NCBI RefSeq assembly: GCF_002575655.3
Contig: NC_053036.3
Location: 154,976,627 to 155,040,626 of the forward strand
Source: Aegilops tauschii subsp. strangulata
Lineage: Eukaryota > Streptophyta > Magnoliopsida > Poales > Poaceae
Direction of reading: 5' to 3'
Length of the DNA stretch: 64,000 bases
Under the pieces are notes generated by a model. That model did no database searches. It was not told the DNA's origin and saw only the letters and a program-made list of their open reading frames with translations. Position 1 is the stretch's first letter, and the number at the start of each line of letters is the position of its first letter. Of this stretch, positions 7,530 to 35,297 are shown piece after piece. The position numbers and the translations under genes are program-made.

Positions 7530-7540
7530 AGAATATTTTC

Positions 7541-8752: not shown

Positions 8753-8829
8753 AAGGGTATTAAAGCTGAAGATGTTAAGAATTACCACCTATTGAAGAAA
8801 TACATGGTCTTGATAACCCAACACAGGTA

Positions 8830-11111: not shown

Positions 11112-12128
11112 ATGTTTAGGAAAATGTACCAAGGTGGTTCCTCAAGGAAGCAAGGCCCAAGGCCCGTGATACGTGAGCCGGACAATCAACTACCAAGGGA
11201 AGCTCAAGTGCGGCCTTGTGAATGGCCGTCAGAAGAGTTTATGGTCCGGGCAGGCATCAACCCGCAATATGTGCGTAATGCTGATCTTGAGGGCTTCGTG
11301 TCAGGTAAGTGCCTGCAATACCACTACCTAACTGATTCCTTTGTGAGAAGGTTTAAATTTACATCCTCGCGCAATTCTCACACTGTTTTATTGGATCTTT
11401 ATGATAAATCATATACCATGGACCTAGAAGATTTTAGTAATGCTTGCAAACTCCCGCAGTGGGGCAATGTTAGTGAGCCTCGCAAATCTGAATATAAAGA
11501 TTTTCTTGCTAGTATCACTGTGGGGGAATCTAGAGAAATCACACAAGCTACCATAGGGAGCATTCATTTTCCTTCCATACATTATTTTGCTCTCTTTATA
11601 GGTAGATGCATTAACGGTAAAGATGAAGCTTGTCACATGTGCATTCCAGATCTTTGTGTCCTCAAAAGTGCGGTATTAGGTGATAAACAATATAACTTGG
11701 GGGCTATTGTTGCACGAAGGTTGCATCTTAACGGTTTAAGTGGAGACTTATTTGGTGGAATTTATGCAACTCGTGTAGCTAATTATCTTGATGTACCCAT
11801 GCGTGAAAATGATATGGAGTTACCTCCTGCTTATCTAGATTATAACGCTATGGTCCGCCATCAATTTGTTGAGAGGAATGAACAGTTCCTCCAGTACCGA
11901 CTAATCTTCAACAGATGTCGCACTGTCCATATTGCTCTCCCTGCTCCTACTTTCTTTGACTTTCAGGCAAAAAGGATATTTGTTATAACCAGGGAGGAGG
12001 CGAACGAGTATGAGAGGAGGACGGAGGCAGCTCGCCTCCAAGCTGCAGCTCGTCAGGCAGTAGCTGCTGCATCTCAGTACGACCCCAACTACGACTTTGG
12101 ATATCCGCCAGGCCAGCAGTGGCCATAG
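11112..12128 (+). CDS. E1 third ORF (Athila-type, env position)
   Basis: An intact 338-residue ORF starts at ATG 11112, between protease and the 3' untranslated region, where Athila-like elements carry an extra or 'env-like' gene. The protein has CEWPSEEFMVRAGI near residue 36, a globular middle, an Ala-rich helical tail (residues 295-320) and a Tyr/Pro-rich end. I see no signal peptide or transmembrane segment, so calling it an envelope is not justified. It resembles the Athila ORF family of unknown function. A possible 5' intron lies at about 10871-10942 (gtatgt...gcttag). It is the only uninterrupted long gene of E1 besides gag-PR. Confidence 0.65.
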   Translation: MFRKMYQGGSSRKQGPRPVIREPDNQLPREAQVRPCEWPSEEFMVRAGINPQYVRNADLEGFVSGKCLQYHYLTDSFVRRFKFTSSRNSHTVLLDLYDKSYTMDLEDFSNACKLPQWGNVSEPRKSEYKDFLASITVGESREITQATIGSIHFPSIHYFALFIGRCINGKDEACHMCIPDLCVLKSAVLGDKQYNLGAIVARRLHLNGLSGDLFGGIYATRVANYLDVPMRENDMELPPAYLDYNAMVRHQFVERNEQFLQYRLIFNRCRTVHIALPAPTFFDFQAKRIFVITREEANEYERRTEAARLQAAARQAVAAASQYDPNYDFGYPPGQQWP

Positions 12129-12149
12129 ACCAACTTAGGCCAAAACCCT

Positions 12150-12163
12150 AAGCTTGGGGGAGT
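12150..12163 (+). other. Second (central) polypurine-tract-like copy in E1
   Basis: aagcttgggggagt is identical over 14 bases to the sequence directly before the 3' LTR (14150-14163). It lies 22 bases after the stop of the third ORF. It could prime an internal plus strand, like a central PPT; alternatively it marks an old duplication. Confidence 0.6.
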
Positions 12164-14149
12164 ACGTATTTCTCACCGATATTACATTCATGTTCACACA
12201 CTCATGCCAGTTGTCGGTGCTCATACTTTTTCATTGTACTATCCATGCTAGTTTATTTTCTTTTCTAAGCCTTCTTCTTGTGTGTTTCAAAAACCTTAAG
12301 ACAAAACAAAAAAATAGTTGTAGCTTTTAGCTAGTTTACTTTCCATGCCTGTAGTAGTAGTAAAAAGAAAACCAAAAAAGATTTCTCGTTCTTCTTTTTT
12401 CTTGTTGGGAGCTTTCCCATGTAAATAGTTTTATTTCTTTTCTTTTCTTTGGGGGTCGAGAGGAGAAGACCATGATGAAAATGTTGAGAGGCTCTCATAT
12501 GCATTATTGTTGATTTAACCAAGAGCCCATATTACCTTGTCTTCTCCCTTGTATTGAATGCTTGCAGATTCCAGCTTAGTCCAATGTACGTGCACTATTA
12601 TTATTATTATCCACACTGTTCGGTCGTGCAAGTGAAAGGCAATAATGACGATATATGATTGACTGATTGAGCTGAGAGAAGCTGGTATGAACTCGACCTA
12701 TCTTGTTTTTGTAAATATGATTAGTTCATCGTTCCTGATTCAGCCTATTATGAATGAAACATGTTTGCAATGACAATTAGAGATTATAGTTGCTCATGCC
12801 ATGCTTAATTAGCTAGGAGTTTATAATGGTTTACCTTCCGTGCCAACATGCTATTAAAATAGTTGTTATGTGGTATCATAGGGTGGCATCCTCCTTTGAA
12901 TGATTTGAGTGGCTTGACTTGGCACAGGTTCACGCATGTAGTTGAAACAAAATCAACACAGCCTCCACGATATTTATGTTCAGGGTGAATTATATCCTAC
13001 TCATGCTTGCACTCAGTGTTGATTAATTTTAATGCATGTTCATGACTGTTGTCGCTCTCTAGTTGGTCGCTTCCCAGTCTCTTTCTAGCCTTCACTTGTA
13101 CTAAGCGGGAATACTGCTTGTGCATCCACTTCCATAAACCCCAAAGTTATTCCATAGGAGTCCACCATACCTTCCTATATGCGGTATCTACCTGCCATTC
13201 CAAGTAAATTTGTATGTGCCAAACTCTAAACCTTCAAATGAAATTCTGTTTTCTATGCTCGAATAGCTCATGTATCAACTAGGGTTGTCTATATCTTCCA
13301 TGCTAGGTGGGTTATTCTAACGAGGAGTGGACTCCGCTCCTCACTCACGAGAAAATGGCCGGTAACCGGGATGCCCAGTCCCATGCTCAAACCAAATCAA
13401 AATAATTGCAAACAAAACTCCCCCAGGATTGTTGTTAGTTGGAGGCACCCGTTGTTTCGGGCAAGCCATGGATTGATGCTTGTTGGTGGTGGGGGAGTAT
13501 AAACTTTACCATTCTGTTTGGGAACCACCTATAATGTGTGTAGCATGGAAGATATCGAGATCTCTCGGTTGTTATGTTGACAATGAAAGTATGCCACTCA
13601 AAATATTATCTATCTCTATTTCAAAACTCGAGCTCTGACACCTCTACAAATCCCTGCTTCCCTCTGCGAAGGGCTTATCTATTTAGTTTTATGTTGAGTC
13701 ATCATCCTCTTATTAAAAAGCACCAGTTGGAGAGCACCGCTGTCAGTTGCATGCATTACTATTAGTTTTCATTGAGTATGACTGGATCTCTTTTACCATG
13801 AATTACAATGTCTAGTTGGTCCTTGATCTTTAGAGGTGCTCTGCATTTATGTTTTGCGGTCTCAGAAAGGGTTAGCGAGATACCATCTTGTTATATCATA
13901 TTATGATTGTTTTGAGAAAGTGTTGTCATCCGAGATTTATTATTATTGCTCGCTAGTTGATTATGCCATTGATATGAGTAAACATGAGACCTAAGTGTTA
14001 TTGTGAATATGGTTAGTTCATAGTCTTTGTTGAAAACTTGAATGCTAGCTTTACATATTTACAACAACAAGAGCAAACAGAGTTTGTAACAGTTTTTCTT
14101 TATCACTTTCAGTTTGTCAATTGAATTGCTTGAGGACAAGCAAAGGTTT
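12164..14149 (+). other. E1 long 3' untranslated region
   Basis: About 2 kb of AT-rich sequence without a supported ORF. It has short low-complexity runs (tattattattat near 12598, T-rich stretches near 12390-12450). No homology to pol was recognised, so the missing RT and integrase are absent rather than merely mutated. Confidence 0.6.
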
Positions 14150-14163: not shown

Positions 14164-14849
14164 TGATACGTCTCCATCGTATCTACTTTTCCACTTTTGC
14201 CCTTGTTTTGGACTCTAACTTGCATGATTTGAATGGAACTAACCCGGACTGGCGCTGTTTTCAGCAGAATTGCCATGGTGTTATTTTTGTGCAGAAATAA
14301 AAGTTCTCGGAATGACCTGAAACTTCACGGAGAATATTTTTGGAATAAATAAAAAATACTGGCAAAAGAATCAACACCAGGGGGCCCACACCCTGTCCAC
14401 GAGGGTGGGGGCGCGCCGCCCTGCCTCGTGGGCCCCCTGAGACTCCACTGACCTCAACTCCAACTCTATATATTCACGTTCGGGGAGAAAAAATTCGGAG
14501 AGAAGGATTCATCGCGTTTTACGATACGGAGCCACCGCCAAGCCCTAATCTCTCTCAGGAGGGCTGATCTGGAGTCCGTTCGGGGCTCCGGAGAGGGGAA
14601 TCCGTCGCCGTCGTCATTATCAACCTTCCTCCATCACCAATTTCATGATGCTCACCGCCGTGCGTGAGTAATTCCATCGTAGGCTTGCTGGACGGTGATG
14701 GGTTGGATGAGATTTATCATGTAATCGAGTTATTTTTGTTAGGATTTGATCCCTAGTATCCATTATGTTCTAAGATTGATGTTGCTATGACTTTGCTATG
14801 CTTAATGCTTGTCACTAGGGCCCGTGTGCCATGAGTTCAGATCTGAACC
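14164..14849 (+). repeat. E1 3' LTR, part 1
   Basis: This matches 6146-6835 of the 5' LTR, including the TATA region, and stops at gaacc where E2 is inserted. About 29 differences from the 5' LTR were counted by eye over this half, including a four-base indel. Confidence 0.92.
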
Positions 14850-16325: not shown

Positions 16326-19300
16326 ATGGCTAAACAAGTTTATGAGTGCAACTGGGCTCCCTCTCGAGTAACCGAGGAGCAATTAAACAACCTTGTTAAA
16401 ACGGGCGCCTTAGCCAAGAAAGATGTCATTCACTAGAGGGTCCCTGGCCCAGAAAATCCTCCTACACCCAAGGATGGAGAAGTAGTCGTGTTTGCTGATC
16501 ATCTTGGACGAGGTTTTAGCCCTCCCGGTTCAAAAAATTTCCGAGATGTGCTAGCCAATTTTCAGCTGCGCCCTCAAGACATCGGTCCCAACTCTGTTAC
16601 CAACATCTGCCATTTCCGAGTATTCTGTGAAGCTTATCTGCAAGAGGAACCTACACTCGAACTGTTTAGGGATTTCTTTCACTTAAACCATCGCACCGAG
16701 TTCTCAAATGGACCCAACACGGAACTGGGCGGAATGGCGGTTCAGAAGAGGAAAGAAGTCACCTTCCCCCATCCCAAACTCCACAGTCACCCCAAAGAGT
16801 GGAACCAAACTTGGTTTTACTGCATGGATACCTCTCCATCTGATGAAAACCCCCTACCGGGTTACCGCCCTAAATGCCTGAGCAATACACACCCGTTTCC
16901 TCAGAGGTTGACAGCAAGAGAACGGGCCAACTATGCTCCCCAACTATCAAAGCTTAGAGCCTTCATGGCGAACGGTTTGACAGGAGTTGATCTTGCTCGT
17001 TGCTGAATAAGCTGGAGCATTCTGCCCTTAAGCCGGCGCCCCAGTTTGATGTGTGAGTACACGGGTAGTCTGAAGGATGCTCAGCGGCACATTGATATTC
17101 AGATTACAGACAAAGAAGTCGCTGAGGCTGTAAAGAAAATACTGAACGAACCGGAGGCCGTCTGTGCCCAAATCGGACTACTCCCTTTCTGCACCTTCAA
17201 CAAACCACCAGCTATAAGAATCATACAATCCTTTGTATCTGAATTTGCTTCTGTCCAAATATTCTCTGAGAGTGTGATTATTTTCTGACAGGGTGATGAT
17301 CCGTTCTCGAACAAGAAACCATCACAAGATAAACCGGCAAAACCACAAGACAAACCGGTCAAGCCAGTTTGTCCAAAGACCAAGGTTGTTAAGAAACCTG
17401 CCAAAAGAAGGACCACTGCATCCTCCGATCTACCAGCTGATGACAATGTGCGTAATCCGGAATCAGAGGTAGAACTTGACTCTCTAGGTTCATTTTTCGT
17501 ACATCTCATTGACAATGATTATTATCAGGACGACGCTGAAGGCAGTCACGCTGAGGACGTAGAGGTAACTATTCTTTCCTCCGATTTAGATCCTCTGCCA
17601 ACATCAAAAATCCGTCAAGCAAACCGGAAAGTAAAATTTTCTCACCCTCTTGCTTATTTGGACCCAAACTTTCTTTTGAAGACGCAGCAGCACGAAGCTC
17701 GCCGTACAACCCGGCACAGCGGCCAGGTAGTTACCTCCGCTGGTTTACCGAACAGTCCGGTTCAGAAACGCCGATCAGAGGTCTCTTATCCCATTGATAC
17801 TTCATGCCCAAAAGCAGGCTGTTTTTGCCAGCCTCTTAACCAGTCTGATTCAAATTATCAGGGTACTTCTCACTCATCCTCTGGCGAGTCTTCGGCCACA
17901 CAGCTTCCACCCCTCAAAACAGTTCCTGGGTGAGTTATGCACATGTCTTTATTCTTGATATGTTATCTTTTCATACTGTACTAATCCTTATGTCTTATCT
18001 TTTCGCAGCGCCAAGCCAAGACCTAGCAAGAAATCTCGATTGAACAAACCGGCTGATGATAATGTAGCTGCTGAACCGGAAACAACTCCAGATCTGGAAG
18101 AAACTGATGCTGACGCCATGCTTCACGATCCGCCGCTTCAAGACCATGATTTCCTTGCTGAACAAGTGCAAGTTGATACTACAAGTCATGCAGACCGACC
18201 AACCATCCCTGTCTGAACTGGTGACAAACCGGTCAGTCCAGCGAAGGACACTGATAAACCGCCAACTCCGGCAAGAGCTGCTGATGAACAAGATGATGAC
18301 GTTATGATTACTGGCACTGGCCACTCCACTCCAGGCAACCCTGTAGCTTTGTCAAAGCATACTGCCAAGGATGATCTCTCTGCTATCGGCAAAGGCGAAT
18401 GGAATGCCGATTTATCAAGCTTTGCCCACCTCAATGTTCAAGATATTCACTCTGGCTTCTTGCACCGTCTGTATACCAGCCGTGACTATGAAGCTAGTTT
18501 GGTAAACTTGATGAAGGAGCGATATGAGGTAACTACTGTTTTTCTCCTTTGTCCAATTGCAGTTCATCGACTCGTAGTAGCTCCCAAGTGACGGTTTATG
18601 ATACCAATCTAAACCGGGACTTTTGTCATAACTTAACTTTGCCTATTTAGCCTCCAGGGACCGGATTACCTTGTTAAGATGAACCAGTTCCTTAAAATTT
18701 GCCATACTGCTCTTTCGCCGGTATAGTCCCAAGGGCCGGTTTAACTTTATAAAGATGAACCGGGACTGTAGAAGAATTCCCATATCAACAGCTTTTTGAG
18801 CAAACACACATTAGCCCCCAAGTGCCATGCTTAATACTTGTATTGTGCTTGGGACTTGTAAAAATTTCTGAGTAAAAGCAAATATGCATTAGCCCCCAAG
18901 TACTAAGGGCATAACTTGTTATGTGCTTGGTACTTCAAATATGTACTGTCAACTCATTATGTATCTGTCTCTTTACAGGCAGAGCTGAGCAAGAAGGAAC
19001 GCCAAACCGCTGATCTGCAAGAGAACATCAAAACCCAGCAAGCTGAAGCCTCCAAAGCGAAGGAAGAGTTGACCCGCACTCTAGGCGCTATGGAAAAACT
19101 GAAAGAAGGTTTCAACAAAGAGCGGGCGGATTGGGAGACTGAAAAAGCCGCTTTGATGAAAAGGACTAAAAACGCAGAAGCCGCTCTTAAACCGGTGGTT
19201 GACGAACTGACTGGTGTAAAGCGGCAAGTGCATGCTAGGACCGCTGCTGTGTTTGGTAAGCATCTTGTCTTTAATACTTGTCAACATATCTTCCCATGCA

Positions 19301-19910
19301 TTGCCGGTTTACTGATGTTTGCAATGATGAAGGAACTCGCATTAGTCATCTGGGCTCTGATGTTCAGAAGAAGCTGAAGGCTGCCTATACGCTAATAGAA
19401 CAACTGTATACCGGCGCTCAACGAATTATCTGCACCGCTTCTCACAATAAGCCGCCCCCGACGTTAATCAAAGATACCTTAGACAGGCTATCTATGCTGC
19501 CTGCCCGGGTAGAAGAGCTGAAGAGGTCTGCTGCAAGGGCTGGCGCTCTGACCGCCTTAACCCGGGCAAAAGCATGGGTGCCTGATCTTGACCCGACGGA
19601 CGTGGCTAAAGGCTACCCAAGCTTGAAAGAAGACGGATCAGAATTTTGCACTGAAGATCTCCGCGCCATAAACCGGGAAGTACGTCCACTGGCTTGTCAA
19701 CTTGCTCAAGAGGCTGATCTTTCACATTATCAGGAGATTTATTATATCAATAACAAGCGGGTTGTTGCACCAGCTCCTGAGGCTCAAAACCTGATCCCTC
19801 CAATCCGTAAGCACACTTATGCCCCTGATATTGAACCGTCCACCCTTATAAGCGACGAAGCTGTGTTCCAAGCTTTAACTGGAATCGACTGGACAACTGT
19901 TGACTTCTAG
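16326..19910 (+). pseudogene. E2 antisense gene, decayed copy
   Basis: This is a multi-exon gene antisense to gag-pol, homologous to the intact gene of E3. A 516-base 5' UTR intron (15798-16313) precedes ATG 16326. Later exons are about 17292-17929, 18009-18528, 18979-19255 and 19333-19910, with gt...ag borders. The donor of the first coding exon (near 17205) is unclear. N-terminal signature: PPTPKDGEVVVF, then CEAYLQEEPTLELFRDFF. A basic NLS-like patch (KKPAKRR) and a coiled coil (from 18979) follow, then a conserved C-terminal region with RAKAWVPDLDP. In-frame TAG (16434), TGA (17004) and TGA (18214) break it. N-terminal similarity is to the Transposase_28-like 'putative gypsy type transposon' family, function unknown. 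Confidence 0.8.
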
Positions 19911-21430: not shown

Positions 21431-21435
21431 ATCGC

Positions 21436-22606
21436 TGTCGGGTGGTTGGTGCGACATATGCCAATGGATGGCTTATCATTGTGGGAGCCAATAAAACGTC
21501 GCCGGTGCCTGGAAACGGGATGAGGCGAAGACATGCACGCCAGCGAATCTTACCCAGGTTCGGGGCTCTCCGAGGAGATAACACCCCTTGTCCTGCTCTG
21601 CGGGGTCTCCGCGTGATCACTAGCTCGATAAAGAGTAGCTACAATCGCTCCTAGAGCTGTTGGGATCAAGGGAGAAGAAGAACAAGGCTAGCTCTTGCTT
21701 CTCTCTATCTATGGTGTGTGTGTGTGTGCTATGCTTGGAAGCTAAGCATGCAGAGGTGCCAACTATGCTTGGGTCAAACTATGCTCAGTGGCCAACCCTT
21801 TGCATGGGTGCTCCGGGGGGTTTATATAGGCCTACCCCCCGGGGGTACAATGGTAATCCGACTGGGAACTGGCCCCAGCCGTCAGTGTCTGCGCTCGCCG
21901 GCTTCTCCGCCGGCTGCTGGGTCCCGCCGGCTGCCGTCTACTCGGTCGACAGGCCGGCCCCACCGCCCAGGGCTTTGTCGGCGGCCGCTTACTGTAGCCG
22001 CGCCTCTGATGATGAGGGCTTTGTCGAGGTGAGCATGGCTACAGTGGGCCGCCTCGGGGGCTATCACTGTAGCCTCACCTCGTCTTGTCTCCTTAATGGG
22101 GCTCCTGCTTCGAGGAAGGGAGTAGCCGGCATCCGGAGGCCGGCTATGCTCCCGGCCGACTAGGGAAAGCCGGGCCTCCTTCACGCCTCTCTCTGGCTGA
22201 AGGGGCCCGCCGTCCTTGGGCCGTACAGGAGGGGATCGTGGATGACGTCGTAGCTGGCGTGGCTACAGTGCCGGGCCGCACGGGAGACATCCCTCTCGTA
22301 CGGCCTCCTGTAGCCATGCCCGCCTCGGGCTTTGGGGGTCGTGGGCCGCACTGTGGCCATGCCCCGTCAGGTCGTCGTTATGTTGGAGTGGTTGTGGTCT
22401 TGGCCGGCTTCTAGGAGTCGGCGTCCTTCTTGGCCGGCTTCTTGGAGTCGGTGAGGCTGGGTCGCCTTCCGGGAGTCGGCTTTAGTGGTAGCCGGCCGGG
22501 GAAGGCGGCCCAAATGCTTGGAGTGCTTGAAGGCCCAAAGGCCTGATATATTTTCTGAAGAGCCAGGGGTAGCCGGTTTGGCTACCCGTGGCCACTTACT
22601 CCGACA
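21436..22606 (-). repeat. E3 3' LTR (1171 bp)
   Basis: The LTR runs TGTCGGGTGG...CTTACTCCGACA. It carries the same TATA-in-hairpin (21813-21842) and long inverted repeat (22025-22082) as the right copy. A (gt)n run lies near 21714-21728. Confidence 0.95.
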
Positions 22607-23039
22607 GTAGTCCTCGAAGCTGATCGGGCTTCGAGGTGGAGTAGGGTTCAAGAAGCTCGAACAGCTTCCCATCGCGACAAGCCGGCAGCTGGGAGCCGGC
22701 CTTGGTCAGGCACGTCGCCTGAGCCGAAATCTTCTGGAGTCGGAGGGCGGGAACCCGCTGGCATGCGCGCCGGGCCGCGGGCCGGCCGCGGGCGACGGCG
22801 CGCCACGTAGCCGAAAAGCCTGCCAGCCCACGCGCGAGACGGGACGTTGCCGCAGAGAGGGGGCCGCCACGTCCGCGCCCCAGCCCAGGCGCGGATCTTT
22901 TGTATCCCGGAACCGCCCGCACGTTCCATGCGGCAGTTTCGGCTCGCACTTATGCGTAATAAACGCGAGGCGTGGGGGGAGTGGGCGCAGTTAATCCCAC
23001 GTCTCCCCCCCACGTCCGGCCTCTTCGGCCCCGTGAGGC
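22607..23039. other. E3 segment between 3' LTR and antisense-gene promoter
   Basis: 433 bp, very GC-rich, without a supported gene. ORFs on both strands are GC shadows. It should hold the E3 polypurine tract (minus strand, near 22607-22625) and upstream promoter elements of the antisense gene. A cgcgaggcgtggggggagtg block lies about 70 bases before the TATA box. Confidence 0.5.
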
Positions 23040-23047
23040 TATAAGTA
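23040..23047 (+). promoter_or_regulatory. TATA box of the E3 antisense gene
   Basis: tataagta in ggctataagtaggggg lies 145 bases before ATG 23185. A C/T-rich leader typical of plant transcripts follows. It points to independent transcription opposite to gag-pol. Confidence 0.72.
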
Positions 23048-23184
23048 GGGGGAGGTGGAGGGCGGCAGACCCTCGCACGCTCCTCCTACTCCCTTCGTCT
23101 TCTCGCCTTGCTCGTTCTCGCAACAGTGCCTCGCCGCCGCGCTCTTCCTCCGCACGCTCCTCCGCTGCCGTGCTAGCTTCCGCC

Positions 23185-26100
23185 ATGCCTCCCCACGTAG
23201 AGCAGCGTGGCGGGGATTGGGATGGCTCCATCGTCCACAACGACCACATCGACTTCCTCCGCGACACACGGCGTCTGCCCAGCGCGGACAAAGTGGAGGT
23301 CCGCCTCGCGCCGGAGAAAGAAATCAGGCCGACGCCGCGGGATGGCGAGCGGGTGGTCTTCCGCTCGCACTTCCTGCGCGGCTTCGGCTTGCCAGTGAGC
23401 GCCTTCTTCCGCACCTGGCTGGACTTCTATCAGCTCCAGCCGCACCACCTCACCCCCAACGCGGTGGTGCTGCTGTCGGCCTTCGTCACCCTGTGCGAGG
23501 GCTATCTCGGCGTCCTCCCCACCCTTGAGCTCTGGGGGGAGTTCTTCCAGTCAAAGCTGGGTACGCGCAGCCAGGGCGTGCCGGCCCACACTGGCGCCTT
23601 CATCGCGTCGCGGAGATCGGGCGCCGACAACCCCTTCCCCATCATCACGCTGATCCAATCGATGAAGAAGTGGCAGAAATCATACTTCTACGTGCGGAAC
23701 ATCGCTCCACGGGGCGACTACGTCAACCTGCCGGCTTACGTAGCCGGCCCGCCGGCGGGGAGGCTGCCCCAGTGGTCCTTCCGGGCGGTGACGCTGTTGC
23801 AGGGAGGAAACGCCGCCATCGCCCGCCTGCGGGTGATGGCCCAGACGGAGGGCCTGACGGGGCCCGACCTCCTGGCCGCGTTCGTCACACGCCGGGTCCT
23901 CCCGCTCCAGAGCCGGCCTCATCTGATCTGTCAGATGAGTGGCCAGCTCGATCCAAGCCGGATGTGTACCAAGGAGATGCCGCAGGCCGACGCTGCCGAC
24001 ATGGTGAACTACCTCGCCAACTGCCAGCTTCCCGACGACTGGCAATTCGGCAAGGAGCCATACAGCCGCGCCAATCCTCCACCTACGGTACACTCCCCTT
24101 CTCTTTTTCTCTTTGTTGCCGAGTTCCTCCGGCCCGATTCTAACTCAGTCGGCTCGCTCTTTCGACAGAATCCTCTGCTTCGGCCGGCCAGCGGGACGGA
24201 CGTGGAGCGCCGCTTCGCCCCCGACCGGACCGAGCTCGACCAGGAGGACCCCGATCTGGGGGCGGTCCATATGGAGGAAGCCGCCGAGCCGGCTGGTGGC
24301 CAAGCCGGCGGCGAAGCAGGCGGCGCCGGGTACTCCGCGACCTTCGACGATTGGCCGGACAAGGACGAAGCCGAAGTCGTCCCGCCCCGCCAGCCAGCCT
24401 CCGGACGCGGCGCGGGCTCCTCCGGCGCGCAGCCTGCTCGGGGTAGAGGCCAGAAACGTCGCGCCACCCAGGGCATGTTCGGTAGCCGGACGAAGAAGCC
24501 GAGGGGTGGGGCGGCAGCCACCAGGCGGGAAGAAGCGGCCGCGAAGGCGGCTCGCTTCCGCAAGGTGGTGAAGCAGCCGCAGGCTGTGTCAGCGTAAGCT
24601 TTCTTTCGTTATGTGTATTCTCCTTCTTTCTTTTCTTGGATGGTTTTCTGAACCTTTGTCTTCTTTTCTTTGATCAGAGCTCCACTATCACTCGAGCGGG
24701 CGGCTGCCGGCTCCGTTGTCGAGTCGCCAGGGGGCTCTGGGAGCACCACCCGCCGCGTAGATCCCCGCGCCGCCCTCCTGGAGGCGACGGAAAGGAACGC
24801 GCGGGACGTGCGGGAGGAGCAGGAAGCGCGGGAGGCGGAGGCACGGAGGGCAGCCGCCGCCCAGGCAGCTCGGGAGGAGGAGGCGGCGAAGGCGCTCGCC
24901 GAGGCCGCAGCCAAGGCCCAGGCAGAGGCCGAGGCCGAAGCGGCGGCAGGGGAGGCCTTGATGGACACCCCCCTGCGCGCCATGGCGCCCGGGGACGCGG
25001 ATCCCTCGCCAGGGGGAGCCAGCGGTTCCCAGCCGGGTCTGGGCGGGAGCGGCGACGACGTCATCTTCGTGAGGGAGGCGCTGGGGCCGACTCCTCCGAC
25101 CAGGGCGGCCCAAGGCGGTCAGACCGAGCCTGCGCCCGCACAGTCGGCGGAAGGCGAGCCGGCCGCGGGAGCTGCGGTGGCGGTCCGGGTTCCGCCAAGC
25201 CGGCGCGCAGGGAAGGCCGCGTCGGAGCCACGGCCGGCCGTGGGCTCCAGCTCGTCGGCCCGAGACGCGGAGGCGGCCAGCGCTACCTCCGGGTGGACGC
25301 CAGGCGGAGGGACAGCCGTGGTGAACATCACTGCGCAAGACGTCCGGACCCGGCTCCAGGGCCAAGCCGCGGCGCGGAGGCAGTTCACCGACGAATTCCT
25401 CGCCACGCGGGCTGCCATCCGGGTTAGTATTCTCATCTTCTTCTTGATTTCTCTCGTGGGGGCGTGTCAGCGCACCCACTGGGTGTAGTCCCCGAGATTC
25501 GGGCCGACTGCTGAGCAGTCGGCTCGGATCTTCCTTGATGATTTCTCATCGTTGCTTTCGTTCTCACGTCGATCTTCTGTCCATCTTGCAGGACTATCAC
25601 AACCTCCGAGCGGCCGCCTTCAACTCCCAGGCTCAGGAGCTGACGCAGAAGACCGCCGATCTCACTGAAAGCCGAGGTATGTAACTTGATCTTTATCTCA
25701 TGTGGGGGCGCGTCAGTGCACCCACTGGGTGTAGTCCCCGAGATTCGGGCCGACTGCTGAGCAGTCAGCTCGGATCTTCCTTGATGATTTCTCATCGTTC
25801 TTCTTGTTCTTCTATCTCTGCAGCGGCCAACGCCAGTCTGAGGGCACAGCTGGGGGAGTCCCAGACTGCTCTTCGTGCCAGGGACGCGGAGGTCGCCGCC
25901 TTGGTGCAGGAGCGCGACCGCCTGGTCAAGAAGCTGGCCGACCAGGCGGAAAGCCACAAGGCGGCGCTGAAGGCGGCGCAGGACCGCGAAGCCGCCCTCC
26001 AGGCTGAGTTCGAGACGGAGGCGGCCGCTTGGGACGAAGCCAGGCAGACTCTGGTCTCCGGCTATGGCCAGATTGAGGATTTGGTTGACGGTAAGTCGTC

Positions 26101-26892
26101 TACCCCTTCGTCCTTTCTTGCCATCTGTCATTTTGACTTGTTTTTCTGACTTGGGGTTCTTCTTTTCTTTTCTGCGCAGAGTACTTCCCCGGCTATTCCA
26201 CTGCCGCCAACCAGGCCATCGAAGCTCGTCGCCAGGCGAAGAGGCAAGCCGGCTTTGAGATTTCGCCAACTGCCGGCCGCTCGCTGGCGGAGCAGCTCCT
26301 GGCGATCCAGGCTCGTATCCAGCCGGCTCACAGGCTGCTCCGCCGGCTTCAGCGTGCCGGGTCGCAGGTCCTGGCCGCCCTCTGGCCCGGCCAAGAGATC
26401 CCGCGCACTCCCAGTCGGACCGCCGACTGGCTAGAGGTGGCCGTCGGGCGCTTCGAGGCTTGGAAGGCGTCAGCGGCTCGCTCCGGCGCCGGGCGGGCGC
26501 TGGAGTTCGTCAAGGCCTGGTACCCAGGCCTGAATCTGGACCAGCTGGCCACCTGGCGGCAGCAAGCCGACACGGAGCTGGAGCCGGCGCGGCCGGCCAT
26601 CATTCGACGGGCTTCGGCAATCGCCGACTACACCGACACCAATGTCTTCGCCCCCGAGGTGGACGACAATGGAGTCGCCCAGCCGAAAGATTGGTTCGGG
26701 CTGGACCCGGCGTACGGCGAGGACTCGGCGGAGGAGATCGCCTCCAGCGACGAGGGCGAAGAGGAGGAGGAGGAGGGTGAAGACGTCGAGCCGGCTGGTG
26801 GAGCTGCCGGCCAGCCTGACCGCGCCTCCAGCACTACGCTGCGCGCGAGTGCGTCTCCTGTTGCGGGAGGCGGTCAAGCCGGGACCAGCTAG
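23185..26892 (+). CDS. E3 antisense gene, intact, six exons
   Basis: Exons: 23185-24087, 24169-24593, 24678-25422, 25592-25676, 25824-26090 and 26180-26892. All five introns (81, 84, 169, 147 and 89 bases) have GT-AG borders, and phases agree throughout, giving 1045 codons plus TAG. N-terminus (about residues 45-250): PTPRDGERVVF, CEGYLGVLPTLELWGEFF and WQKSYFYVRN, a Transposase_28-like domain found in 'putative gypsy type transposon' proteins. Exon 2 has a basic NLS-like patch (GQKRRATQG...TKKPRGG). Exon 3 has an Ala/Glu-rich coiled coil, and exon 5 a second one. Exon 6 has a conserved FVKAWYPGLNL segment and a Glu-rich tail (EEEEEEGED). It lies between pol and the 3' LTR on the opposite strand. 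The function is unknown; nuclear action is only inferred. The ATG was chosen because it follows the TATA box and begins the conserved region. Confidence 0.85.
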
Positions 26893-27678
26893 GCGGCCAC
26901 TCCTTCAGCCGGCGAGCTGCCTTCACCGACCAACTCGGCCTTCGCGCCTTTGTCTTCTTTCTTTTGTTTCCTGTCTTGTTACTTTTGAACAATGTTTTTG
27001 GTTAAGTCTGCGCAGTTCCACCCAGTGGGTGTATTGAAATTCAAGTCTGTTGCCGCCTATCGGGGGCTTTTATGTATATAAGTTATGCAATCGGTCTTTC
27101 CTTGTACTTTCGCTTTTTGTCCTTCTGCTTTTTTCCTTTGCCACCCTCCCTTGGTTGCCGCCTCCCTAGTCAAACAGTTGCTCTGCAATCTGTAGCCGGG
27201 GAGTGCCTGGCCGATTGGGGAGGGGGAAGTACTTTTTAGCTCGGTCGGACTTAAGCTAAGTTTTCAGGAAGCCGGCCAGCCGGCTGCTGTTACAGCCGGC
27301 AGGCATATATGGAGGCCGTCTTTTTGCTATATAGGTTAGTTGTTCCTTAGCCGTTTTCCCGTGGGCGTCCTTTCTGTCTTCTCTCTTGCTAGTCGGACAG
27401 TCAGTTCTTTGAGCTGCGACTTTCAACAAGAGAGGACTGGGGAGCCGGCGCACTACTTTGCTGACTTCGGGAAGAACTTATAATATAGCTTAAGGCGGCC
27501 AGTCCCCGGGCCGACTAGTCGGACCCGGTGCCGGACAAGAATTCAAAATGTAATAAGACATTCATGGATATGACACTCGTCATCCATAGATAAATAAAAG
27601 GCAGTCCCCGAGTACTGTTCGGGGGGCCTGTTGGTTTGTAACTTAATACAAAAGGGGTAGCATGATACATACTGCTTT
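26893..27678. other. E3 convergent untranslated region
   Basis: 786 bp lie between the stop of the antisense gene (plus) and the stop of pol (minus). No gene is supported. The near-palindrome cacccagtgggtg near 27013 echoes cacccactgggtg in two introns of the antisense gene. The 3' ends of both transcripts probably overlap here. Confidence 0.6.
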
Positions 27679-30600
27679 TCAGCTGTAAAATTGTCTTAGG
27701 AGGTTTGCGTTCCATGGTCGCTCCGACTCCTTGCCGGAGTCGTCTCTCTTGCGTGCTCTTGGCTTTTGCGCGTCGATCAAGTAGTAGGAGTTGTTGCCGA
27801 GTGCCTTGCTGACGACGAAGGGGCCTTCCCAAGGGGCCGAGAGCTTGTGCTGGCCGGCTGTTCGCTGGATCAGCCGGAGCACAAGGTCGCCCTCTTGGAA
27901 GGATCTTGGCTTGACCTTGCGGTTGTAGTAGCGGCGCAGGCCTTGCTGGTAGATGGCGGACCGGCTGAGGGCTAGCAGCCGGCCTTCTTCCAGTAGGTCG
28001 ACGCCGTCTTCTCTTGCTTCTTTGGCTTCCTCCTCCGTGTACATGGTGATCCGAGGCGAGTCGAACTCGATGTCTGTTGGGATGACAGCCTCGGCACCGT
28101 ACACGAGGAAGAATGGAGTGAAGCCGGTTGACTTGTTGGGTGTAGTGCGCAGACTCCAGAGGACAGCCGGCAGCTCTTCGAGCCAGCAGCCGGCCGATCG
28201 CTCCAGTGGTACAACCAGTCGGGGTTTGATGCCGGAGAGGATAAGTCCATTTGCTCGCTCGACCTGGCCGTTTGACTGCGGGTGGGCAACGGACGCTAAG
28301 TCCAGTCGGATGCCCTGTGTCGCGCAGAAACGTGCCAGCGCGCCTTTGGCGAAGTTTGTGCCGTTGTCGGTGATGATGCTGTGCGGCACGCCGTACCGAG
28401 TGGTGATGTCGGTGATGAATGTCACGGCAGTCGGCCCGTTCAGCTTCTTAATCGGCTTTGCTTCGATCCACTTTGTGAACTTGTCCACAGCAACGAGTAG
28501 ATGTGTCAAGCCACCGCGGGCCGTCTTGAAAGGGCCCACCATGTCCAGTCCCCAGACGGCGAAAGGCCAGGTGAGGGGAATGGTCTTGAGGGCAGAAGCC
28601 GGTAGGTGTTGTTTGGAACTGAAGACTTGACATCCTCTGCAGGTCTTGACTATTTCTTTAGCATCCTCCAAGGCAGTCGGCCAGAAGAAACCATGGCGAA
28701 AAGCCTTGGCCACGAGGGATCTTGAGGCGGCGTGGTGGCCGCATTCGCCTTGGTGGATGTCTTTGAGGATTGCCACTCCTTTTTCTGGCTCGACGCAACG
28801 CTGGAAGACTCCAGTGACGCTGCGCTTCACAAGCTCCCTGTTGATTATTGTGTATGCTGCGGCTCGTCGTTGCACTAGTCTTGCTGTGATCTCATCAGTC
28901 GGCAGCTCTCTGCTGACTAGGAACTTGAGGATGGGCTGGGCCCATGAGGGAGCTGTGACTTCTTCTGCTGTTAATGTAGCCACCATGACTCGGGTGGGTG
29001 GGTTGGGTGTTGCGTTGGGGTCGACCACCACTTCTTGCGTCGTTGCAGTCCCCGGGCCGACTGCTGCAGTCCCCGGGCCGGGCTCTGAGGTCCCTGGGCC
29101 GGGTGCGACTACGTCAGTTCCCGGGGCAGTCGTCGAAGTCCCCGTGCCGCCTGCGGGATTTCTTGAGCCGGATCCGGCTGTTTCTGGCGCAGGCGGTACG
29201 AAGATGGAATCCGACTCTGGAGACGGCTTGATGGACGGCTTGAGGAGGCGCTGGAGGGAGACACCAGTCGGTATGGCTTGTCGGGTGGAGCCGATCCGTG
29301 CTAGGGCATCTGCTTGGTCGTTGTCGGCCCTTGGCACATGAAGGAACTCGCACCCTTCGAAGTGTCCGCTCATCTGCTGGACGAGGAAGCGGTAGCTCGC
29401 CATGTTCGCGTCCTTGGCGTCCCAATCGCCAGATGATTGCTGGACCACTAAGTCGGAGTCGCCGTAGCACAGGATCCGGCGTATGCCGAGCTCTTTGGCT
29501 AGCCGGAGCCCATGTACGAGCGCCTCGTACTCGGCCACGTTCTTGGAGGCGGCGAAGTGGATCTGCAGCGTGTACTTGAGCTTGTCGCCTTTGGGAGAGG
29601 TGAGGACGATGCCGGCTCCCAAGCCGGTGCGCATCTTGGACCCGTCAAAGTGCATCCGCCAATGGGTAGAGTCGGGAGCCGGCGGTAAGTACTGGGTCTC
29701 GGCCCAGTCGACGAGGAAGTCGGCCAATGCTTGCGACTTGATGGCGGTGCGGGGTTGATAGAAGATCGTGTAGGGCGCCAAGGCAATGGCCCATTTGGCC
29801 ACCCGGCCGGATGCATCCCGGCTGCCTATGATCTCGGCGAGCGGGGCAGTGCACACGACCGTGATGGGGTGCTCTTGGAAGTAGGGCTTCAATTTCTTGG
29901 CAGCGAAGTACACCCCATAGCACATCTTCTGGTAGTGCGGGTAGTTTTGCTTTGAGCTGGACAGTACTTCGCTGAGATAGTAGACCGGCCTCTGGACCAG
30001 CTGGGCTCGGCCTTCCTCCGGGCGCTGGACCACAACAACAGTGCTGACGACTCGGCTTGTCGCGGCGATGTAGAGGAGCATGGGCTCCTTCTCAGTCGGC
30101 GCAGCCAGGACAGGCGGAGTGGTCAGCATTTTCTTCAACTCATGGAAGGCTTGGTCGGCTTGATCATTCCACTCAAAGTGAGTGGACTTCTTCATGAGTC
30201 GGTACAGGGGGAGGGCCTTCTCTCCTAGTCGGCTGATAAAACGGTTCAGGGAGGCTAAGCAGCCAGTGAACTTCTGCACATCTCGCAGCTTGGTGGGTAT
30301 CTCCATCCTTTCGATGGCCTTGATCTTGACAGGGTTGCACTCAATGCCGCGTTCGGAGACCAGGAAGCCTAGCAGCTGGCCGGCTGGTACTCTGAACACG
30401 CACTTCTCGGGGTTGAGCTTGATCTGGAATCGGCGCAAGTTGGCGAATGTTTCCTTCAGGTCTTCCAGGAAGGTACCGTGCTTCTCTGTCTTCCCCACAA
30501 TGTCGTCTACGTAGACGTGGGCATTTCTGCCGAGTTGTTTCAAGAGACATTTCTGCATGCAACGCTGAAAAGTGGCACCGGCGTTTCTCAAGCCGAATGT

Positions 30601-31095
30601 CATTGTCAGGTAGCAGAAAGCTCCAAAGGGTGTGATGAAGGCAGTCTTCAGGCGGTCAGCTGGGTCCAACTTGATCTGATGATACCCTGAGTATGCATCC
30701 AAAAAACACAACAGCTCGCATCCGGCTGTAGAGTCTATCACTTGGTCAATCCGTGGCAAAGCAAACGGATCCTTTGGGCAGGCCTTGTTCAGACTTGTGT
30801 AGTCTATACACATGCGCCACTTGTTATTGTTCATCAAAACCAGAACTTGATTGGCAAGCCATTCTGGAAAGAACACTTCCATGATGAAGCCGGCTGCAAG
30901 GAGCCGGGCTATCTCTTCTCCCACGATTCTTCGCTTCTCTTCTGATAGTCGGCGGAGGGGTTGCTTGACCGGCTTCGCATCAGCTCGGACATGTAATTTG
31001 TGCTCGGCGAAATCCTTCGGGACACCCGGCATGTCCTTTGGGGACCATGCAAAGATGTCTCGATTCTCACGGAGGAAGTCGGCGAGCTCGCCTTC
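27679..31095 (-). CDS. E3 Pol: RT, two RNase H domains, integrase (intact)
   Basis: The frame is open from 31095 (right after the TAG at 31096-31098) to the stop at 27679; the first internal Met is at 31032 (1117 residues from there). RT: LDAYSGYHQI at 111-120 and YVDD at 174-177. Connection RNase H covers about 310-440. A second, archaeal-type RNase H lies at about 457-580 (HFDGS, EYEALVHGL, YGDSDLV, ADALARIG). A Pro/Gly/Thr-rich linker with PGPGT repeats follows at about 615-670. Integrase: HHCC finger near 760-801, D of GLDMVGPF near 830, D of ITDNGTN near 889, E of GQVERAN, and WEGPFVV in the C-terminal region. All key catalytic residues are present. It is probably expressed as Gag-Pol by reading through the TAG, or from a parent lacking it. 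Confidence 0.92.
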   Translation of the reverse strand, partial: EGELADFLRENRDIFAWSPKDMPGVPKDFAEHKLHVRADAKPVKQPLRRLSEEKRRIVGEEIARLLAAGFIMEVFFPEWLANQVLVLMNNNKWRMCIDYTSLNKACPKDPFALPRIDQVIDSTAGCELLCFLDAYSGYHQIKLDPADRLKTAFITPFGAFCYLTMTFGLRNAGATFQRCMQKCLLKQLGRNAHVYVDDIVGKTEKHGTFLEDLKETFANLRRFQIKLNPEKCVFRVPAGQLLGFLVSERGIECNPVKIKAIERMEIPTKLRDVQKFTGCLASLNRFISRLGEKALPLYRLMKKSTHFEWNDQADQAFHELKKMLTTPPVLAAPTEKEPMLLYIAATSRVVSTVVVVQRPEEGRAQLVQRPVYYLSEVLSSSKQNYPHYQKMCYGVYFAAKKLKPYFQEHPITVVCTAPLAEIIGSRDASGRVAKWAIALAPYTIFYQPRTAIKSQALADFLVDWAETQYLPPAPDSTHWRMHFDGSKMRTGLGAGIVLTSPKGDKLKYTLQIHFAASKNVAEYEALVHGLRLAKELGIRRILCYGDSDLVVQQSSGDWDAKDANMASYRFLVQQMSGHFEGCEFLHVPRADNDQADALARIGSTRQAIPTGVSLQRLLKPSIKPSPESDSIFVPPAPETAGSGSRNPAGGTGTSTTAPGTDVVAPGPGTSEPGPGTAAVGPGTATTQEVVVDPNATPNPPTRVMVATLTAEEVTAPSWAQPILKFLVSRELPTDEITARLVQRRAAAYTIINRELVKRSVTGVFQRCVEPEKGVAILKDIHQGECGHHAASRSLVAKAFRHGFFWPTALEDAKEIVKTCRGCQVFSSKQHLPASALKTIPLTWPFAVWGLDMVGPFKTARGGLTHLLVAVDKFTKWIEAKPIKKLNGPTAVTFITDITTRYGVPHSIITDNGTNFAKGALARFCATQGIRLDLASVAHPQSNGQVERANGLILSGIKPRLVVPLERSAGCWLEELPAVLWSLRTTPNKSTGFTPFFLVYGAEAVIPTDIEFDSPRITMYTEEEAKEAREDGVDLLEEGRLLALSRSAIYQQGLRRYYNRKVKPRSFQEGDLVLRLIQRTAGQHKLSAPWEGPFVVSKALGNNSYYLIDAQKPRARKRDDSGKESERPWNANLLRQFYS

Positions 31096-34000
31096 CTATT
31101 TACTGTCCAAGTTCGCCCCAATCACGGCGAACCTCTCCGGGTGCTCCGGGTCTAGAGGTATCTTCTTCGTCTCTTTGGCAGGCTGGAAGGAGCCCTGCGC
31201 ATCACAGTCCTTGGGGTTGGGGGACAAGGTCGGCTGCTTGCCGGCCATGGCCACAACCCGTTCCAGCATCTTCTTCTCTTCCGCCACCACGAGGGACTCG
31301 GCCAACCGGCTGCTGGCCATGGCACACTCGATGGACTTCTTGTAGTCGCCGGCTACCGTGATGATCCCCTTCGAGCTCGGCATCTTCATCTTCAGATAGG
31401 TATAATGGGGCACAGCCATGAACTTGGCCAAAGCAGGTCGGCCAAGTAGCGCATGATAGGGGCTCTCCAGGTCCACCACCTCGAACCATATTGCTTCCCG
31501 GCGGAAGTGATCTTTGTCTCCGAAGAGAACATCCATTTTGATCTTGCCGATTGGAGAGCAAGATAGGCCGGGTACGATACCGTGGAAGACAGTGCGGCTC
31601 GGCATGAGCTGCTTTGCTTTGATGTTCAGCTTGTCCATGGTGTCGCGGTACAGTATGTTGATACTGCTTCCGCCGTCTATCAGGACGCGGGAAAATCTGG
31701 CAGCTCGCCTCTCCGTCGCAAGGGTGATGTCCAAGACCATAGCATAGGAGCCAGGCGAAGGCATCACCTCTGGGTGGTCGGCCTGGCTCCAGCTGATGGG
31801 CTTTTCCGACCAATGCATGAACTCGGCGGTGTTAGAGGCGACTGCGTTTACTTCTTGGTGTTGCCGGCGTCGGTTGCGCTTGTCGTCGACTTGACTCGTG
31901 AAGACGACGTAGGCGTCATGCGCTTCGGGGAACTCGTCTTGGATGGCGCCGACTGCCGGCCGGGCCGCCGGCTGCTGGGGAGCTGGAGGCGGCGGGCAGG
32001 GAGGCGGAGGCGGCACTATCCCTTCGCCCTTGGTGATGCGGGTGAGCCAGTGGCATTTCCGTGTTGTATGGTTGGACGGCTTCGCGCCGCTGTGGAACTT
32101 GCAGGGGGCATCGAGTGCTTGTTCGTAGGAGAAGGACGGCTGCCAGGGCGGCCGGCCTCCCTTCTTCTTGGGAGCGGGCCGCGCCTCGGGCTGCTCGTCT
32201 TCAACTGTGGCCACCTGCCGACTGGAGGAAGTCGGCAGGGGGCCCTTACGCTTGTGGTCGTTCTGGTAAGGGCGCCGGTTGGGGTCACCAGCCGGCTGCT
32301 TGGGAGCCGGAGCGACTACCTTCCCCGAGGCGTCCACTCGGAGCTCGGTCTTCATGGAGGAGTCGGCAGTGGCGTACTTGTCGGCGGTGATCAGCAACTC
32401 ATCGAGGGTAGCCGGCTCGTCGCAGAGGAGCCGGTGCTTGAGGAGGGTGCCTTCTCGGCACCCGGCAGTGAAGCACTCGATGGCCTGGACCTCGTGCACT
32501 CCCTCGCAGGAGTTGCGGAGCTCGGCCCATCGCGTGAGGTAGTCGCGGGTCGACTCGTTGGGCCCTTGGACACAGAGGGAGAGCTGGCGAGGCTTGGGAG
32601 GCCGCTTGTAGGTGCTGGTGAAGTTGCGGACGAAAGCTTCGGTGAAGTCCAGCCAACTGTTGATGCTGTAGGGCTTGAGGCTGTTGAGCCATGTGCGCGC
32701 CGTGCCCTGCAGCATCAGGGGGACGTACTTCACGGCAACGCGCCGGTTGCCGTTGGCGATGCTGACGGCTGTGGAGTAGTCGATGAGCCAATCCTCCGGC
32801 TTCACCGAGCCGTTGTACTTGGGCGTGTCTCTGGGAGCGAGAACCCTTTGGGGAAGGGCTCGTTGCGGATGCGGGGGCCAAAGCATGGCGGGCCGACATC
32901 GTCTTCTTCTAACGCCAGGGACCGAGCAAGGCGGTCGATCCTGTGGCGGGCGTCACTCTCGCCGACTCCTTCTCGGCGGCCGAGTCGGTCGCCAAGAGTC
33001 GGATGGGTGATGGGCGGCGGAGTGAGGCGTCTTTCTCTTCGAAGCGGGGGAGGAGGCAGGTTTCCCTGATGTTCAACCGCCCGAGGGCGGCCTTCCGCGT
33101 CGCGCTCGATAGTGATGCGGGTCCGGCTACGGCTGGCAGCCGGCTCCTTGTCTTTCTTCTGGTGCGTGCCGCTCGCAGTCGGCGAGCGGGACGTCGCGGC
33201 GTGCTCCCGGCGCGGGGGATGGCTATCAGCTCGGGCGCCGGCTTCGTGCCGTTCTACAGCCGCGTCGATCAGCTGCTGGATCCGTCTTGTCATGTAGGGG
33301 AGCTCATCGGCTCCCAGCCCATTGAGCTCCTCTGCTGCCGCCTGAGCGGCTCGCAGATTCTCGAGCGGGGTGGCGTAGACGGGGCGATCTGCGCCCAGCA
33401 TGCTGGCAACGGCTGCGCCGCGCTTCTGGACGATGCCGGCTCGGCTCGGGCCGCTCGGAGGCGGCGTCCCGAAGGCGGCGCAGTCGACTTCGCGTTGGTG
33501 GGCCTCGGCGAGGCGTCTCATCGAGGCTATCTTCTTGCTCTCCGTGATGAGGGCAAGACGGCGTGCCTCTAGGGTCTCGGCGTCGGCGTCGGCCGGGAGG
33601 GGGATGGAGAGGTCGTGCATCGCTGCTTGCTGAGCGTCGCGGGCGCTCCCGCCCGAGTTGGAGACGTGGCTGATGACTAGCACTTCGGTGACAGCGCTGC
33701 TGCCGCTGTCAGCTCGAGGGAGTGGGTCGTCGAAGACCACCACGTCGGAGGGGTAGGCGTCGAGTGACGCGGTGTCGGAGTCGATGAGCATCGGGTCGGT
33801 GGAGCCGACAGACTCCATGTCTGCAGCAGGCTCGCTGGAGACGTGAAGTTGGTCGAGGAGGCTGACGAGGCGGCTCTCGGGGTAGTCGGTGCCTGCGTCG
33901 GACGCAGGCTCGTCGGAGATGCGAGTCTCGCCGAGCAGATCGGCGAGGCGGCTCGCTGCGCAGGCGTCGTCGACGCCTTGCAGCGCGTCGGGGCAAGCGC

Positions 34001-34104
34001 CATTGGGCGCAGCAGGATGGCTGCGCTCGCGGGGAAGGAAGAGATTTCCCGTCCAGAACAGGTCTCCGGACGACGGTGCACCTGGCCCCACGGTGGGCGC
34101 CAAA
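31096..34104 (-). pseudogene. E3 Gag and protease, one frameshift
   Basis: The first frame runs from the PBS (possible ATG at 33818) to 32802 and encodes the acidic/Ser-rich Gag N-terminus. The capsid and remainder lie in another frame from 32886 to 31096: GTARTWLNSLKPYSIN, FVRNFTSTYKRPPKP, a CKFHSG...C nucleocapsid-like segment with Pro runs, and the protease (LIDGGSSINILY, SPYHALLGRPALAKF). The change of frame near 32850 looks like a one-base indel. The protease frame ends with TAG at 31096-31098 and continues in frame into RT. Protease and capsid motifs are intact. Confidence 0.87.
34085..34102 (-). other. E3 primer binding site
   Basis: On the minus strand TGGCGCCCACCGTGGGGC begins two bases after the LTR. 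It is identical to that of E2, so both use the same tRNA primer. Confidence 0.78.
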
Positions 34105-34481
34105 TGTCGGGTGGTTGGTGCGACATATGCCAATGGATGGCTTATCATTGTGGGAGCCAATAAAACGTCGCCGGTGCCTGGAAACGGGATGAGGCAAAGA
34201 CATGCACGCCGGCGAATCTTACCCAGGTTCGGGGCTCTCCGAGGAGATAACTCCCCTAGTCCTGCTCTGCGGGGTCTCCGCATGATCACTAGCTCGATAA
34301 AGAGTAGCTACAATCGCTCCTAGAGCTGTTGGGATCAAGGGAGAAGAAGAACAAGGCTAGCTCTTGCTTCTCTCTATCTATGGTGTGTGTGTGTGTGCTA
34401 TGCTTGGAAGCTAAGCATGCAGAGGTGCCAACTATGCTTGGGTCGAACTATGCTCAGGGGCCAACCCTTTGCATGGGTGCT

Positions 34482-34511
34482 CCGGGGGGTTTATATAGGC
34501 CTACCCCCCGG
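34482..34511 (-). promoter_or_regulatory. E3 LTR TATA box inside a 9-bp perfect inverted repeat
   Basis: The arms ccggggggt (34482-34490) and accccccgg (34503-34511) enclose a 12-base loop with the minus-strand TATATAA box. The left LTR has the same structure at 21813-21842. The orientation drives transcription toward gag. The structure lies in U3, so it would be present in the 3' end of the genomic RNA. Confidence 0.7.
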
Positions 34512-34710
34512 GGGTACAATGGTAATCCGACTGGGAACTGGCCCCAGCCATCAGTGTCTGCGCTCGCCGGCTTCTCCGCCGGCTGTTGGGTCCCGCCGGC
34601 TGGTGGGTCCCGCCGGCTGCCGGCTACTCGGTCGACAGGCCGGCCCCACCGCCCAGGGCTTTGTCGGCGGCCGCTTACTGTAGCCGCGCCTATGATGATG
34701 AGGGCTTTGT

Positions 34711-34768
34711 CGAGGTGAGCATGGCTACAGTGGGCCGCCTCGGGGGCTATCACTGTAGCCTCACCTCG
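34711..34768. repeat. 18-bp inverted repeat in E3 U3
   Basis: The left arm is cgaggtgag, a catg insert, then gctacagtg (34711-34732). The right arm is cactgtagc then ctcacctcg (34751-34768). They pair over 18 bases with one four-base bulge and an 18-base loop. The same structure is at 22025-22082 in the other LTR. The motif CTACAGTG/CACTGTAG recurs elsewhere in the same U3. Confidence 0.85.
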
Positions 34769-35297
34769 TCTTGTCTCCTTAATGGGGCTCCTGCTTCGAG
34801 GAAGGGAGTAGCCGGCTTCCGGAGGCCGGCTATGCTCCCGGCCGACTAGGGAAAGCCGGGCCGCCTTCACGCCTCTCTCTGGCTGAAGGGGCCCGCCGTC
34901 CTTGGGCCGTACAGGAGGGGATCGTGGATGACATCGTAGCTGGCGTGGCTACAGTGCCGGGCCGCACGGGAGACATCCCTCTCATACGGCCTCCTGTAGC
35001 CATGCCCGCCTCGGGCTTTGGGGGTCGTGGGCCGCACTGTGGCCATGCCCCGTCAGGTCATCGTTATGTTGGAGTGGTTGTGGTCTTGGCCGGCTTCTAG
35101 GAGTCGGCGTCCTTCTTGGCCGGCTTCTTGGAGTCGGTGAGGCTGGGTCGCCTTCCGGGAGTCGGCTTTAGTGGTAGCCGGCCGGGGAAGGCGGCCCAAA
35201 TGCTTGGAGTGCTTGAAGGCCCAAAGGCCTGATAAATTTTCTGAAGAGCCAGGGGTAGCCGGTTTGGCTACCCGTGGCCACTTACTCCGACAATCGC

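Follow-up and report, generated by a model that had tools for sequence, protein, structure and literature searches.

A predicted six-exon antisense gene with a Transposase_28 domain in a Retand-type retrotransposon of Aegilops tauschii

A six-exon gene predicted in antisense inside a Retand-type retrotransposon of Aegilops tauschii is probably an accessory gene of that element, which would use its own promoter, be spliced from six exons and encode a two-module protein regulating the element from the nucleus. The window, which is the whole stretch of DNA analysed, comprises 64,000 nt of Ae. tauschii subsp. strangulata (NC_053036.3, 154,976,627-155,040,626; all positions are window-relative) and is made up of nested retroelements. 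The evidence supports the gene structure with the exception of the intron-2 join, the conservation of both end modules and constraint on exon 1, while use of the promoter, splicing in planta, entry into the nucleus and function are what we infer. The features are compiled in Table 1.

Table 1. Predicted features of the gene, the element carrying it and the enclosing element B
Feature	Positions	Strand	Basis or remarks
TATA box TATAAGTAG	23040..23048	+	motif; presumed own promoter
Exon 1	23185..24087	+	301 codons; ~290-residue globular domain including Transposase_28 (PF04195)
Intron 1	24088..24168	+	81 nt, without in-frame stop; weak donor GTACAC
Exon 2	24169..24593	+	acidic and basic linker, NLS-like KRR..KKPR..RR
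Intron 2	24594..24677	+	84 nt, 55% T, GC 0.35; join covered by no relative
Exon 3	24678..25422	+	Ala/Glu/Arg-rich, low-complexity
Intron 3	25423..25591	+	phase 0; paralogous to intron 4, strong hairpin
Exon 4	25592..25676	+	
Intron 4	25677..25823	+	phase 1; paralogous to intron 3
Exon 5	25824..26090	+	putative coiled-coil-like heptad region
Intron 5	26091..26179	+	89 nt
Exon 6 and stop	26180..26892	+	conserved helical C-terminal module, then acidic tail
AATAAA	27593..27598	+	motif only; possible poly(A) signal
Gene-bearing element	21436-35292	-	13,857 bp; LTR pair and TSD
TSD ATCGC, 5 bp	21431..21435, repeat at 35293-35297	.	flanks of gene-bearing element
3' LTR	21436..22606	-	TG..CA ends; LTR comparison
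5' LTR	34105..35292	-	TG..CA ends; LTR comparison
pol open frame including stop	27679..31095	-	Pfam and ORF; RT, RNase H, second RNase H-like domain (aRH), integrase
gag open frame (Retrotrans_gag)	31099..32952	-	Pfam and ORF
Upstream open frame	32805..34307	-	reading frame different from gag; weak colinearity with neighbour's gag
Exon-1 homologue in element B	16350..17210	+	decayed, two in-frame stops; 32% identity
Exon-6-module homologue in element B	19362..19607	+	30% identity

The element and its nesting

Pfam matches in the pol frame are RT_RNaseH (residues 316-421), RVT_3 (462-579) and rve (823-918); by our reading, RVT_3, lying between RH and INT, would be the aRH by which Retand elements are recognized. 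The LTRs of 1171 and 1188 bp, the internal region of 11,498 bp and the distance of 5,072 bp from pol to the 3' LTR, all calculated from coordinates, fall within the ranges given for Retand elements by Vicient 2025 (PMC11963269: LTR 315-1,194, internal 7,380-12,869, pol-3'LTR 2,933-6,566 bp). On the basis of the aRH, the antisense Transposase_28 ORF and these sizes, the element is classified as Retand-type (Tat, Ty3/gypsy). A long purine run directly adjoining the 3' LTR (22607-22640, element's strand) was not found.

The LTR pair differs by 8 transitions and 8 transversions over 1171 sites (K2P 0.0138, i.e., 1.4% divergence), corresponding to an insertion age of ~0.5 My at a rate of 1.3e-8. 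With these 16 substitutions over 1171 sites the element is not a potentially recently active Retand element (PRARE), a designation based on identical LTRs. An earlier note, made from the letters of the sequence, had described the gene as antisense to gag-pol inside a young element; its orientation and the low LTR divergence bear this out, but there is no overlap with gag-pol, the gene being placed wholly in the spacer between pol and the 3' LTR and ending 786 nt before the pol stop codon.

Element B encloses the gene-bearing element (14850-42065, TSD GAACC, LTR identity 95.8%) and is itself inserted in an LTR of a third element, the LTRs of which are ~95% alike. LTR divergence is smallest in the innermost element, so that the nesting order agrees with the age order. 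The outermost element is found at 6146-7529 and 14164-14849 and resumes at 42071-42766, its LTR being split by element B; it contains weak matches to a protease (below cut-off) and to ATHILA ORF-1. Near the window's right end, two weak matches to the exon-1 domain on the - strand (60290-59827, E 8e-11; 56949-56455, E 4e-8) point to further relics of antisense genes.

In the gene-bearing element, gag and pol share one frame and are divided by a single in-frame stop (31096-31098), which may be either a lesion or the natural two-ORF layout. The upstream open frame shows weak colinearity with the N-terminal half of the one-ORF gag of element B (81 residues at 26%, E 0.001; 30 residues at 37%, E 0.057), and the match is carried on by the gag frame proper (134 residues at 34%, E 5e-25). 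This colinearity lends moderate support to a change of frame in gag, as had been proposed in the earlier note.

Gene structure and splice joins

The exons of 903+425+745+85+267+713 nt between 23185 and 26892 form a stop-free frame of 1045 amino acids plus stop on the + strand. Among the ten GT-AG combinations that fit these exon lengths and ends, this is the only stop-free one, in agreement with the model of matching intron phases proposed beforehand. The acceptor is CAG in all five introns, with 75-94% pyrimidine at -5 to -20, and the donors score 2, 3, 4, 5, and 5 of 6 consensus positions in gene order. GC content amounts to 61-75% in the exons versus 35-53% in the introns. Intron 2 is plant-like, with a GTAAG donor, a CAG acceptor, 81% pyrimidine and 55% T. 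The TATA box anticipated ahead of the gene is present, starting at 23040, 145 nt upstream of the ATG and with no ATG in between.

Borders and phases had originally been taken as sufficient proof of a gene, which is not supported. When up to 5 freely chosen GT-AG introns were allowed in the stitching of 40 dinucleotide shuffles, the frames averaged 780 codons and the longest had 971, none of the 40 reaching 1045; the reverse strand of the gene stretch, stitched likewise, gave 930 codons, and the real strand itself a frame of 1141 codons, longer than the 1045-codon model. Since free stitching gives long frames by chance, the case for the gene is carried by its relatives rather than by its borders.

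A search with exon 1 gave 189 relatives at E 0.001 and one with exon 6 gave 290; the figures that follow refer to the 120 listed for each. The exon-1 end is reached by 69 of the 120 listed relatives. Of these, 67 extend beyond it by two residues or more, and in 59 of the 67 the next residue is Val, as is required by a phase-0 GT donor (the remaining eight have I and E twice each and N, R, P and D once each). The second residue in the 59 Val-first relatives is S (34), C (16), R (5), I (2), N (1) or G (1); His, which is found here, occurs in none. Identity to this copy is 0.58-0.97 over positions -13 to -2, already as low as 0.28 at position -1, and only 0-0.44 over +1 to +19; the profile was made without gaps, so that indels enlarge the fall. 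Similarity is 0.75-0.96 in exon 1 versus 0.31-0.68 in the in-frame intron 1, the exon being higher in 9/9 relatives compared, all of which align to exon 1 gap-free.

At the other end of the gene, 48 of the 120 listed relatives align from the first residues of exon 6, five as joined models and 43 diverging upstream. The heads of the latter are unrelated, pyrimidine-codon-like, and diverge just upstream of the predicted acceptor, with Ala at -1 in 33/43; three of them (P0212, P0213, P0216) connect exon 5 with exon 6 by reading across the intron, which is open in them. Joins are found in several gene models. P0121 of Ae. tauschii crosses the junctions at residues 691 and 719, its match ending at residue 808, which is the intron-5 donor, while the match of P0128, likewise from Ae. 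tauschii, begins at 692 and crosses 719 and 808. P0135, P0198, P0205 and P0229 join at 808 as well; thus, the intron-5 join, LVD followed by (E/D)-F, is present in 5/6 named exon-6 models, the sixth, P0222, being without it. The intron-1 join is made by P0024 alone of the five named models reaching the exon-1 end (NPPPV joined to NPLI, the last four residues of the match), P0004, P0060, P0090 and P0122 continuing into intron 1. By sequence comparison, Triticeae gene models thus support the joins at introns 3, 4, and 5, and weakly that at intron 1. No relative crossing intron 2 was found in the exon-1, exon-6 and whole-protein searches, and this join is predicted solely from the present sequence. 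The whole-protein search gave two partial matches and no full-length relative.

The 1045-codon frame contains no lesion, although the description of the gene as free of lesions was overstated in view of the intron-1 donor, which matches 2/6 consensus positions. As intron 1 is 81 nt long and without in-frame stop, its retention would keep the frame and add 27 residues.

Introns 3 and 4 have 115 nt in common at 92% identity and can be aligned along most of their length. They differ in phase, and the adjoining exons 4 and 5 are unlike each other (score 26; 200 shuffles, mean 20, maximum 36). Either one intron would have been copied from the other or both would have received the same insert. Both introns contain hairpins (z -4.85 and -3.89, resp.), each stronger than those of 200/200 shuffles. 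The motif CACCCACTGGGTG is located near the strong hairpin in each of them.

Protein modules and constraint

The predicted N-terminus resembles Transposase_28, as recognized early on: Pfam PF04195 matches residues 57-122 with E 1.5e-21 and 76.8 bits versus a gathering cut-off of 26.2, and the domain is found in 42/42 A1 members (E 0.01). AlphaFold2, supplied with this copy, P0122 and 40 relatives from among the 120 listed (42 sequences in all), predicts a single confident domain for residues 10-301 (pLDDT 92, pTM 0.91), for which no structural match was found in PDB and BFVD. The suspected NLS-like patch and acidic tail are likewise present, the former as a basic patch in exon 2 that recurs in P0019 and P0060, i.e., in two of the five relatives aligned there, the latter with a net charge of -15 over residues 976-1045. 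Exon 5 would contribute coiled-coil-like heptads; its Macoilin match is sub-threshold. The C-terminal module is conserved among the exon-6 relatives, without a Pfam family in any of the 42 members, and is predicted with low confidence to be mainly helical (pLDDT 56.5).

Both end modules recur in element B, in the same order, on the same strand and at the same place as in the gene-bearing element. Over 281 codons of exon 1 compared with the homologue in element B, pS is 0.80 (0.77 with shuffled pairing) and pN is 0.49 (shuffled 0.74); codon positions 1, 2, and 3 differ by 0.52, 0.44, and 0.73, respectively. The uncorrected pN/pS is 0.61 (bootstrap 0.54-0.70) and, synonymous sites being saturated, represents only a bound, obtained from one comparison with a divergent decayed copy in a protein-guided alignment. 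It suggests that exon 1 has been under long-term constraint and that the protein has apparently been kept by selection; the dN/dS check asked for by the earlier note, in the rough form that this homologue within the window allows, thus comes out for constraint rather than neutrality.

Proposed role, alternatives and known systems

Transcription would start from the gene's own promoter beside the 3' LTR, and the six exons would be spliced and translated into a two-module protein consisting of the globular Transposase_28 domain, a basic NLS-like linker, a helical or coiled-coil middle part, the C-terminal module and the acidic tail. The protein would most likely enter the nucleus, oligomerise there and regulate the element, be it by acting on its transcription, by shielding it from silencing, or by influencing what becomes of the cDNA. 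In genomic RNA the introns are present as reverse complement and are not seen by the spliceosome. Because of this antisense placement, a five-intron gene would persist through retrotransposition.

The least firmly placed join leaves room for two genes, a TRP28 gene of exons 1 and 2, with the TAA contained in the intron-2 donor as its end, and a coiled-coil/C-module gene of exons 3 to 6. The exon 2-exon 3 join is found in no relative, P0019 and P0060 end where exon 2 read on would end (...VSA/VSS), and the gene model P0121 begins with Met inside exon 3. Nevertheless, a division of this kind is unlikely, considering the plant-like intron 2, the agreement of frames across it and the unchanged order of the two modules in element B. 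Still less is to be said for a function of the RNA rather than of the protein, in which antisense transcripts would pair with genomic RNA and lead to siRNA silencing or a block of reverse transcription. The genomic RNA is, in its 3' part, complementary to this unit, such a role has been discussed by Vicient and Casacuberta (PMC7264820), and the hairpins in introns 3 and 4 are strong, but amino-acid constraint and sharp exon borders would be unexpected if the RNA alone were functional; protein and RNA may each have a role.

A real chance, though one falling short of even, is given to the family gene being genuine and the present insertion being an unexpressed passenger, silenced and starting to decay. 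The 16 LTR substitutions, the gag frame change, the stop between gag and pol, the weak intron-1 donor and the nesting in older elements are in line with decay. On the other hand, the frame has all of its 1045 codons open and shows no gap in comparison with the closest exon-1 relatives, and a unit read in antisense from a promoter of its own could be expressed independently of gag-pol. Hardly any credit is due to a frame stitched by chance or to a captured host gene. The ~780 codons obtained from free GT-AG stitching alone would speak for it; against it stand the failure of all 40 shuffles to reach 1045 codons, the relatives of exon 1 (189) and exon 6 (290), Transposase_28 in 42/42 A1 members, the homologue that element B has in the corresponding position, and the statement of Vicient 2025 that a similarity to TRP28 was not found outside TEs (PMC11963269).

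The preferred reading of a single spliced accessory gene places it in the class of Tat-type antisense ORFs to which it had been assigned at the outset and which has been surveyed in PMC11963269. According to that survey (Vicient 2025), antisense TRP28 ORFs occur in 97% of recent Retand clusters, DNA binding has been proposed for their proteins, and Smc- and TolA-like antisense ORFs are found in Retand elements, too; the latter may correspond to the coiled-coil exons. The present gene is like these ORFs in orientation, position between pol and 3' LTR, Transposase_28 domain and sizes, but the published ORFs were derived with ORF Finder, whereas the present prediction is a single six-exon gene that has a conserved C-terminal module in addition. 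In the text of PMC11963269 the words "intron" and "splicing" are absent, and "spliced" and "exon" occur in references only, while a search for spliced antisense transcripts was urged by a 2020 review (PMC7264820).

As described in these reviews, the maize Grande antisense gene (gene23; Gomez-Orte et al. 2013) also lies in antisense between pol and the 3' LTR; it has its own upstream promoter and a nuclear product, for which a regulatory role has been proposed (PMC7264820, PMC11963269), in comparison with a TATA box and a basic patch alone in the present case. Ogre is an intron-bearing Tat-lineage element as well, but according to PMC6317226 its intron is located in the sense gag-pol transcript, whereas introns of an antisense gene are expected to be retained through retrotransposition. 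HBZ and other HTLV-type antisense genes, which encode nuclear regulatory proteins, offer an analogy only; the HTLV antisense promoter is said to lie in the 3' LTR (PMC11963269), in contrast to the TATA box located 434 nt inside the element here. Within the literature searched, as far as its text was accessible and with the original Grande gene23 report excepted, no description of a multi-exon TRP28 gene was found. Added here to the known class are the split-gene structure, the C-terminal module without Pfam family, the confident exon-1 fold without structural match, and the two paralogous introns.

Extended to the whole group, and put forward more tentatively than the reading of this gene, the antisense TRP28 and Smc/TolA-like ORFs of Retand elements may as a rule be exons of one gene for a two-module nuclear protein, with an N-terminal fold that is perhaps as yet unsolved. 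Antisense placement would let introns be kept and even copied, intron 4 possibly being a copy of intron 3 placed in a different phase, to which template switching during reverse transcription may have led.

Summarizing, antisense genes have been reported in nearly all recently active Retand clusters, and their products are known mainly as ORF fragments. A complete exon model together with a second conserved module provides a defined full-length protein and five junctions to be sought in RNA data, and the gene illustrates why a retroelement can carry introns in a gene that is placed in antisense.
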